The notes beneath the pieces were generated by a model, which was given only the letters and a program-made list of their open reading frames with translations, ran no database searches and was not told the origin of the DNA. DNA of 64,000 bases, taken from NCBI RefSeq assembly GCF_035083965.1, contig NC_089722.1, positions 17,874,642-17,938,641 of the forward strand, written 5' to 3'. Each line of letters starts with the position of its first letter. Within the stretch, counting starts at the first letter, position 1. This DNA is from Branchiostoma lanceolatum. Lineage: Eukaryota > Chordata > Leptocardii > Amphioxiformes > Branchiostomatidae. Shown here in pieces: positions 20,104 to 64,000 of this stretch. A program made the translations under genes and the position numbers.

Positions 20104-21170
20104 TTAGGAAGATCCAGATGTTGATGTGGACTCCTCACTGGATGGTTTTGCAGAGGGGGGTTTCTGTGGCTCACTGTTTGTACCCAGAATAGTCCTTTCT
20201 ACATCCTCGATGTTTATTTCCTTTACCTTCATTGCTTTCTGGTGAAGAGAAATGGGGTCATGGATAAATGATACACCACGGCTGTTAATGACAGAAACAC
20301 CCTGTCAATAGTGCAAAAGAAGTCTTACTGACAGGAAGCACAGGAATACCGTTAAATCGGCAAACATTTAATCAAAACATCCATGCAACGGCTTGAAGAG
20401 TGTAGATCTAAAGCGGTTGACTTGCAAGCCTAATAATACTTAGTAATATCGTGAAAGGTTGGAGGTACAACTTTTTTTCTAACAGCCATCTCTTTAACAT
20501 TCTAGTTAATTGCTATTGTTTGGTTCGTGTCATTTTAAAGGATCATCCACAGGGTAGACAGGATCACTAGGGGTTTGTGACAAATGGAATATCCTGTCAA
20601 TAGTGCCTAAAAATTGTTTCACAATGACAGGAACCACTTCTCAATAACCTCTGCCAAACGTTATATTACATGTAGTATTCGGTTTACCTTGTACTCAGAG
20701 TTCTGCCACTGGTCAAAAGTCACAGCCATGCCAGCGTGCATCTTTCGCAAAATCAATTGGTCATTACCATGGCCCAGGCCAAACATGGACAAATGCTAAC
20801 CCATTGATGATGATGATATCCTATTAGGCTCGCCCCTGAGGCTTCGCCAAAAAAAGAACATGGAAATGGGGGATGGGGCAACGTTATATGATGTTGGGAA
20901 CAATGTTGTTGTTTTTAATCAGAATGGCTCAGTCCCATGCGTTAGTGTGACACACGCTGGCAGGCCGGTACCTTTTCGCCGGGACCCCGAGGTCGGGAAG
21001 GCGGGGGAATCGGTCAGAGATACCTTGACGCAAGACTGGTACTTCTTGAAGAGCGGCGTGCAGGCCTCGTTCGCTCGGTCGCCCTTCAGGAACTTCTCGG
21101 AGAACCATTTGTTGAAGCACTGGTCGTAGTCCCTCTTCATGTCAGTACACTCGGAGCCCACGCTGTTCAT
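20104..21170 (-). CDS. TRIAP1: TRIAP1 (p53CSV/Mdm35), mitochondrial intermembrane-space lipid-transfer partner, 93 aa
   Basis: Exon 1 is 21170-21024 (49 codons, [18 protein letters not shown]..) and exon 2 is 20238-20104, ending in TAA; the intron is phase 0 with GT-AG. Two CX9C motifs are exact: C8/C18 and C37/C47. These form the disulfide-bonded helical hairpin imported by the Mia40 pathway. The first 49 residues follow human TRIAP1 closely (MNSV..CTDMKR.YDQCFN.WF.EKFLKGD). The family pairs with PRELI/Ups proteins to carry phosphatidic acid between mitochondrial membranes, and in mammals is induced by p53. The C-terminal tail is Ser/Thr-rich and longer than the human one. The gene is head to head with GATC, with 463 bp between start codons. 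Confidence 0.96.
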
Positions 21171-21633
21171 GGCGAATGGTTTCTCGAACGAGAGAGAGAA
21201 AAGCCGAGGAAAGTCGAGTTTTTCGTCGGAACGTTGTTTACTTCAAGACTTCAGCTTTGGACGGTGAAGCCTTTGGACAGCTGTGTCGTCTGCAGCGTTA
21301 TCCAAAATTCCACTACGGCAAAGTAGTTCTACAATAATACGTCCTTTATTTCTTACGAAACGGTAACTTGTCACCCAATCATTTCATTTTCAATACTCTA
21401 TTACGCTCTGTGGATGTTTTATACTAAATAAAATGTGTTTGTGTATCAAAAATATATGTAATTTCTTTGGAAATCCGCGGAAGAATACAAATATTTGACC
21501 CGATAAGCTACCTTATGACCTTTCACCTTTCAAGATGGCGGCCTGTGGCTGAAAAAATATCATCGTGAGAAGAAACATCTCGATTTCATGATATACTGGT
21601 GTCGTGCTGGTTTATACAAGTGCGTGGGCAGCT
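21171..21633. promoter_or_regulatory. Bidirectional TRIAP1/GATC promoter region with a YY1-type motif
   Basis: Divergent start codons at 21170 (-) and 21634 (+) leave 463 bp that must hold both promoters. CAAGATGGCGGC at 21531-21542 matches the YY1 consensus typical of TATA-less housekeeping promoters. It is preceded by TGACCTTTCACCTTT, which carries nuclear-receptor half-site sequence (AGGTCA on the minus strand). Promoter function is inferred from geometry and motif. Confidence 0.6.
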
Positions 21634-63600: not shown

Positions 63601-64000
63601 CTTCTGTATTCTTCATCATCACCATTCAACAGAATCCCATGACATTGATTTATGAAGACATAATATTAACCAAAGCATGAATTTGTTCTAGCAGCAGCAG
63701 CAAATCCTTAGCTACAATCAATTAATCAATAACACATTAATTATAATTCTTACATAATAAAATCAAGAACACATGTATGCTCTAAAAAAAATCAACGCAA
63801 TTGAAGGACAAACCTTTTCCTGTTTTCTCACTTTCATTAATGGATTCGAAGCCGAAATGAGTTGATCTCTCGGTGCTTTCTTTTTTATCGCTTTCATCTG
63901 ACGATGTTTGTTCACTGAGATTTCTTCTAGACACGATAATTCTGTTCGAACATCGACAAACACGACCAAGATGGACAGAAACTCTCCGTAAGGCGGCCAT
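57616..64000 (-). CDS. COQ5: COQ5, mitochondrial 2-methoxy-6-polyprenyl-1,4-benzoquinol methylase, 341 aa
   Basis: Exons: 64000-63814, 62935-62786, 60735-60457, 60076-59970, 59734-59646, 58687-58576, 57717-57616 (TGA). The phases close over 1026 nt. Residues 1-30 form an Arg-rich mitochondrial presequence. [16 protein letters not shown] starts the conserved part. UbiE signature 1 is intact ([17 protein letters not shown]), as is the SAM-binding motif [15 protein letters not shown]. An acidic, variable insert spans about 125-180 before [11 protein letters not shown]. Then follow [44 protein letters not shown] and [23 protein letters not shown]5 performs the C-methylation step of ubiquinone synthesis within the matrix CoQ complex. 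Signature 2 has Thr where bacterial UbiE usually has Lys. The start codon is the last triplet of the window, so the promoter is outside. Confidence 0.96.
58348..58543 (+). repeat. 98-bp direct tandem duplication in COQ5 intron 6
   Basis: ATCTGCTTGGAGATTAAGCT at 58348 recurs at 58446 as ATCTGCTTGAAGACTAAGCT. Both continue identically through GCAGTTGCAGAAGCCTTGCA and CCATAGTTCCCCCCTACATC. It lies just 3' of the exon 6 donor. ATCTGCTTGGA also recurs singly nearby. Confidence 0.85.
60948..61140 (+). mobile_element. tRNA-derived SINE
   Basis: TGTAGCTCAACTGGTAGCAG resembles a tRNA 5' half with an A box, and GGTTCCAATCA about 45 bases on resembles a B box. A non-tRNA tail follows (CTTTCGGAAGGGATCTAAAA then GGGGGCCCCATG). 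It inserts in COQ5 intron 2 on the plus strand. The tRNA part cannot fold into a full cloverleaf, so it is not a tRNA gene. Confidence 0.65.
61397..62289 (+). mobile_element. pogo/Tigger-like non-autonomous element (893 bp) with TA target site
   Basis: The left end CAGTAGAAGCCACTTAATTG and the right end (reverse complement CAGTGAAATCCGCTTAACTG) match at most positions, continuing into GCAC. TA flanks both sides. CAGT(A/G)..AA..CGCTTAA termini with a TA duplication are typical of pogo/Tigger elements in the Tc1-mariner superfamily. The interior repeats GATAA.TGCACC motifs and holds part of a TACTGT-family copy (about 61858-61960). No transposase is present. It lies in COQ5 intron 2. Confidence 0.75.
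63078..63273. mobile_element. Foldback element (196 bp) with 13-bp flanking repeat
   Basis: CTCTCCAAGCAGAGGAGT..GCTGGTTTTTGACGTC is mirrored by GACGTG..AAAAACCAGC and ACTCCTCTGTTTGGAGAG, and the inner arms ACTTTCTA.TTT also pair. TATAGTAGAATTA flanks both sides (63065-63077 and 63274-63286). It lies in COQ5 intron 1. A half-copy is at 37935. Confidence 0.8.
63505..63625 (+). repeat. CATCAT/CACCATCTACAT microsatellite-like tract
   Basis: Irregular (CATCATCACCATCTA)n repeats in COQ5 intron 1. The open frames through it (His-rich) are by-products of the repeat. Confidence 0.8.

Follow-up and report, generated by a model that had tools for sequence, protein, structure and literature searches.

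Why do members of five gene families lie side by side in the same order in amphioxus and in human 12q24.31? We addressed this question in a 64,000-bp stretch of the Branchiostoma lanceolatum genome (hereafter the window), which contains, from left to right, TRIAP1(-), GATC(+), SRSF_A(-), SRSF_B(-), DYNLL(+) and COQ5(-), the whole reaching from position 20104, where the TRIAP1 stop codon ends, to the COQ5 ATG at 64000. The answer that we consider probable is that these genes form a conserved housekeeping block that is older than the two genome duplications of vertebrates and owes its cohesion chiefly to two bidirectional promoters, with inertia accounting for the rest. Gene models were built by hand from six-frame translations and their splice junctions were then checked by script; every reading frame runs uninterrupted from its ATG to its stop codon, and the 16 introns that the six models contain all have GT...AG boundaries. 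These intact models bear out the five families, their order, their coordinates and the - + - + - orientations given in the initial annotation, which had, however, counted a single SRSF gene. That count was wrong: two complete SRSF genes lie in tandem at this position, both on the minus strand, and the block therefore comprises six genes. Among Pfam searches with single exons, UPF0203, RRM_1, Dynein_light and Ubie_methyltran passed the cut-off, while GatC stayed under it (20.7 vs 23 bits). No additional gene was recognised between the block members, in that a scan of a subset of open reading frames, including 11 further ones within the block, gave no Pfam match there, and neither Rfam (gathering thresholds) nor ARAGORN (bacterial code) returned a match across the window, whose G+C lies between 0.35 and 0.46 in 2-kb windows. 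In our judgement, rather than by computation, the order of the block is unlikely to be due to chance.

In human 12q24.31, we take the strands to be TRIAP1(-), GATC(+), SRSF9(-), DYNLL1(+) and COQ5(-). The human order that the initial annotation gave agrees exactly with a gene list in PMC11321361 (MSI1, TRIAP1, GATC, SRSF9, DYNLL1, COQ5, RNF10), which is also the window order, and differs by a swap of GATC and TRIAP1 from one in PMC11061283 (MSI1, COX6A1, GATC, TRIAP1, SRSF9, DYNLL1, COQ5, RNF10), if the order of a published list is taken as map order. As far as these lists go, the five human genes lie together as their families do here, in the same order (one list exact, one with the swap), whereas the window has an extra SRSF gene, in tandem with the first. 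A pig list reads MSI1, COX6A1, GATC, SRSF9, DYNLL1, COQ5 and RNF10, without TRIAP1 (PMC10734178); a chicken list for 15:9-10 Mb, which is not in map order, includes TRIAP1, GATC, DYNLL1 and COQ5 and is without SRSF9 (PMC7402339); and a protein or gene table in PMC8688507 names genes of the region without map order. In the sister region, a duck list gives Msi2, Mrps23, Cuedc1, Vezf1, a LOC entry, Srsf1 and Dynll2 (PMC13255704), and one 976-kb human 17q22 deletion, described in PMC13106306, takes in part of MSI2 together with VEZF1, SRSF1 and DYNLL2. According to these sources SRSF1 is thus near DYNLL2 in 17q22, much as SRSF_B is near DYNLL in the window, and the linkage of MSI, SRSF and DYNLL in both sister regions is what would be expected if that link predates the vertebrate genome duplications. 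The block would then give a picture of the human chromosome 12/17 neighbourhood as it was before those duplications.

A bidirectional promoter serves head-to-head genes whose starts lie about 1 kb apart or less, and the left-hand pair of the block is a candidate for this arrangement. The TRIAP1 coding sequence (20104-21170, minus strand; exons 21024-21170 and 20104-20238) encodes 93 aa with one GT-AG intron and is identified by UPF0203 (E 3.4e-23) and, in a search against solved structures, by the TRIAP1 chain 6i3y_A (E 9.2e-28). The GATC coding sequence (21634-30847, plus strand; exons 21634-21717, 29178-29347, 30293-30396 and 30807-30847) encodes 132 aa with three GT-AG introns; it matches amidotransferase subunit C (2df4_C, E 1.1e-6), the sub-threshold Pfam GatC match falls on exon 2, and exon 1 reads by eye like a mitochondrial presequence. 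The interval between the two start codons (21171-21633) measures 463 bp and would hold the bidirectional promoter. The observed/expected CpG ratio is 0.99-1.22 in four 300-bp windows within 20901-21700; two further windows lying between these, starting at 21201 and 21301, failed a listing threshold. Intron 1 of GATC contains a 4.9 kb element (21954-26879) with long inverted arms, which include 248- and 198-nt stretches of 99% complementarity, and with tandem units of ~209 bp. The element, for which no clear target-site duplication was read, is probably a recent mobile element of putatively foldback-like class that lengthened the block and did not break it.

The second head-to-head pair consists of SRSF_B and DYNLL. 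DYNLL (LC8; 56706-56975, plus strand) has its entire 89-aa coding sequence in one exon, is identified by Dynein_light (E 3.9e-44) and has 87 of 89 residues in common with the LC8 dynein light chain 1rhw_A. The interval between the SRSF_B and DYNLL start codons (54330-56705) measures 2376 bp, and a putative divergent promoter would lie in its CpG-rich part, which reaches to about 54900; every one of the eight 300-bp windows within 53901-54900 has a CpG ratio of 1.16-1.58. An acceptor-like ctctctgcag immediately precedes the DYNLL ATG and suggests an upstream non-coding leader exon and an intron; with such a leader, the DYNLL transcription start would fall nearer SRSF_B. The DYNLL coding sequence is intronless here while the human coding exon is presumably split by an intron, and so an intron would have been either lost or gained. 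To the right, DYNLL and COQ5 stand tail to tail with 640 bp between their stop codons. The COQ5 coding sequence (57616-64000, minus strand) has seven exons, 341 aa and six GT-AG introns, with an ATG, its putative start codon, at the window edge, and matches a mitochondrial COQ5-type methylase (4obw_A, E 2.5e-61). Within its intron 6, near exon 6 (58340-58540), a 98-bp unit is present twice with 96% matches.

Support for the idea that the two divergent intervals act as promoters also comes from a shared motif. Both carry AAGATGGCG, which we take to be the YY1 core motif, and in either case it reads in the direction of the gene to its right (plus strand, 21532-21540 for GATC and 54678-54686 for DYNLL). 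This motif, picked after a scan of 15 motif definitions, occurs six times in the window against 0.31 expected, a count reached in none of 100 shuffles; two of the other four copies belong to the arms of a single repeat element, one to an apparent exon of the ankyrin gene on the left flank, and one is at 15876. A search with the looser form AANATGGCG gives 12 matches across the window. Each divergent stretch has one CCAAT-type site (21375 and 54736) out of 27 in the window, and neither interval has a consensus site for ETS, NRF1, Kaiso or E2F. The window-wide CpG ratio is 0.71, and many other stretches, repeats included, are as high as the divergent intervals. The shared divergent promoters proposed in the initial annotation are thus plausible, on sequence grounds, for TRIAP1/GATC, with 463 bp between the ATGs and the YY1-type motif, and less sure for SRSF_B/DYNLL, which is CpG-rich and has the motif, yet has 2376 bp between the ATGs, both distances being measured between start codons and not transcription starts. 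What these promoters could explain is limited to two adjacencies, and the analysis of the window found nothing that would link GATC with SRSF, or DYNLL with COQ5.

What is unexpected about the block is its old tandem duplication of SRSF. SRSF_A (32702-36658, minus strand; exons 36486-36658, 35044-35237, 34257-34429 and 32702-32914) encodes an SRSF1/9-type protein of 250 aa with three GT-AG introns, and its identity is given by RRM_1 on exon 3 (E 2.7e-11) and by its likeness to SRSF_B; it stands tail to tail with GATC, with 1854 bp between the stop codons. SRSF_B (44250-54329, minus strand; exons 54163-54329, 47353-47510, 45644-45816 and 44250-44417), also SRSF1/9-type, encodes 221 aa with three GT-AG introns, and its RRM1 and RRM2 exons have SRSF1 chains as their best matches in the PDB (E 1.1e-28 and 1e-30, respectively). 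The two genes, with four exons apiece, are separated by 7591 bp from the SRSF_A ATG to the SRSF_B stop codon and encode proteins identical at 182 of 220 aligned residues. Their synonymous sites are saturated (dS 3.15, NG86), with identity at 32 of 85 fourfold sites, and fourfold identity is low in each of the four exons (6/14, 10/24, 7/20 and 9/27). Since the synonymous sites are saturated and no exon appears converted, the duplication is old, and a recent duplication or gene conversion is rejected. A blastn comparison of the two regions gave three matches, every one at coding exons and none linking the upstream regions. Exons 2 and 4 of SRSF_A (32702-35237) encode long stretches of glycine that SRSF_B is without; in this respect SRSF_A is presumably more like insect SF2 than human SRSF1.

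How the two copies relate to SRSF1 and SRSF9 can be read from their RRM domains. In RRM2, SRSF_A and SRSF_B share 71 of 76 residues; four of the 76 columns unite both against SRSF1 and SRSF9 and none groups the copies separately, one with SRSF1 and one with SRSF9, in a comparison that has no outgroup and is therefore not polarised. With the same proviso, these columns disfavour a one-to-one orthology in which SRSF1 would correspond to one copy and SRSF9 to the other. In RRM1, with SRSF9 left out, SRSF_B agrees with SRSF1 at 68 of 77 positions, SRSF_A with SRSF1 at 60 of 77 and SRSF_A with SRSF_B at 61 of 77; ten columns join SRSF_B and SRSF1 against SRSF_A, and two join SRSF_A and SRSF1 against SRSF_B. 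To judge from these residues, the preferred reading of SRSF_A and SRSF_B is that both are co-orthologous to the SRSF1 and SRSF9 pair as a whole, and neither should be named SRSF9. It is possible that the duplication took place before the vertebrates and that SRSF_A was then lost. A literature search for a tandem duplication of amphioxus SRSF1, with supplements beyond its reach, gave a single match, which concerned G protein subunits.

In our model of a housekeeping block, the two bidirectional promoters, TRIAP1/GATC and SRSF/DYNLL, would each make a break between the partners costly, while the remaining old junctions, which are short and tail to tail, would most likely be kept by inertia in slowly rearranging genomes. 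The tandem SRSF duplication in this lineage would have split an old neighbourhood, leaving SRSF_B opposite DYNLL and SRSF_A next to the GATC 3' end. This arrangement makes for a natural test of which side resists breaking, the DYNLL promoter side or the GATC 3' side, because the tandem copies part two old neighbours. SRSF_A has no recognised divergent partner, from which it follows that an SRSF gene can live without one, and this counts against a constraint imposed by the promoter.

The main alternative is a neutral persistence in which rearrangement is rare in slowly evolving deuterostome genomes, the block is compact and no junction is under selection. We consider this alternative rather unlikely. 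In its favour, the tail-to-tail junctions, whose stop codons are 1854 and 640 bp apart and for which no shared element was found, have been kept as well, and the functions of the block genes are mixed. On the other hand, SRSF adjoins DYNLL in both vertebrate sister regions, to the extent that the lists above cover them, and housekeeping genes paired head to head form a known class (Marletaz et al. 2018, PMC6292497). There, 25% (3,950/15,884) of neighbouring amphioxus genes are reported to be arranged in bidirectional promoters, with an association with housekeeping functions, and 372 of these promoters are judged putatively ancestral, the majority of them lost in vertebrates. The system described there resembles ours in its head-to-head housekeeping pairs, and that study also looked at YY1 motifs in ubiquitous promoters. 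The two pairs surviving here are too few to be tested against the majority loss of the 372 ancestral pairs stated in that article. Given these 372 putatively ancestral promoters, the block is less exceptional than the initial annotation had rated it.

A narrower proposal, which we regard as unlikely, is that the divergent SRSF-DYNLL pair is itself a unit under lasting selection, with splicing-factor and LC8 output jointly set by one YY1-type promoter. Under such selection both vertebrate copies of the pair (SRSF9-DYNLL1 and SRSF1-DYNLL2) would have come through the genome duplication, and the pair would also have outlived the tandem SRSF duplication here. The least probable explanation, a genomic regulatory block in which the enhancers of one gene sit inside a neighbour, for instance in GATC intron 1 or SRSF_B intron 1, would suit the length of these introns (7.5 kb and 6.7 kb) and the enhancers in bystander genes that Irimia et al. 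2012 reportedly proposed as a cause of microsynteny, but it is very improbable, because no developmental regulator is recognised among the six genes, going by their functions, and because the inverted-repeat element, with arms ~99% alike, takes up 4.9 kb of GATC intron 1. The metazoan microsynteny reported by Irimia et al. 2012 resembles the present block in that unrelated neighbours have retained their order for very long periods; their model is said to centre on a developmental gene and bystander enhancers, whereas no such pair is evident here.

Returning to the housekeeping block with its two putative promoters, long-lived microsynteny around bidirectional promoters is already established as a phenomenon, and we see the block as a clean example of this known class, combined with inertia, and not as an oddity. 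The main texts of a human divergent-pair study and of a further study on metazoan microsynteny name none of the block genes. Literature searches, with supplements beyond their reach, found no paper on a bidirectional promoter of SRSF9/DYNLL1 or TRIAP1/GATC and, for DYNLL1/COQ5 synteny, nothing beyond a human gene list.

Finally, the left flank of the block differs from the human region. The ankyrin gene that the initial annotation placed to the left of TRIAP1 is real, as three of the nine left-hand open reading frames scanned pass the Pfam ankyrin cut-off, with one weak match and five without a match; we place this ankyrin-repeat gene at 6493-13750 on the plus strand, with uncertain limits. 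In human 12q24.31, COX6A1 and MSI1 take its place, and neither was seen in the window with four short peptide strings, a crude test. The ankyrin gene also contains a tandem repeat of 18 bp x 8 (10599-10742), which encodes PPSQHL-type repeats in one open frame.
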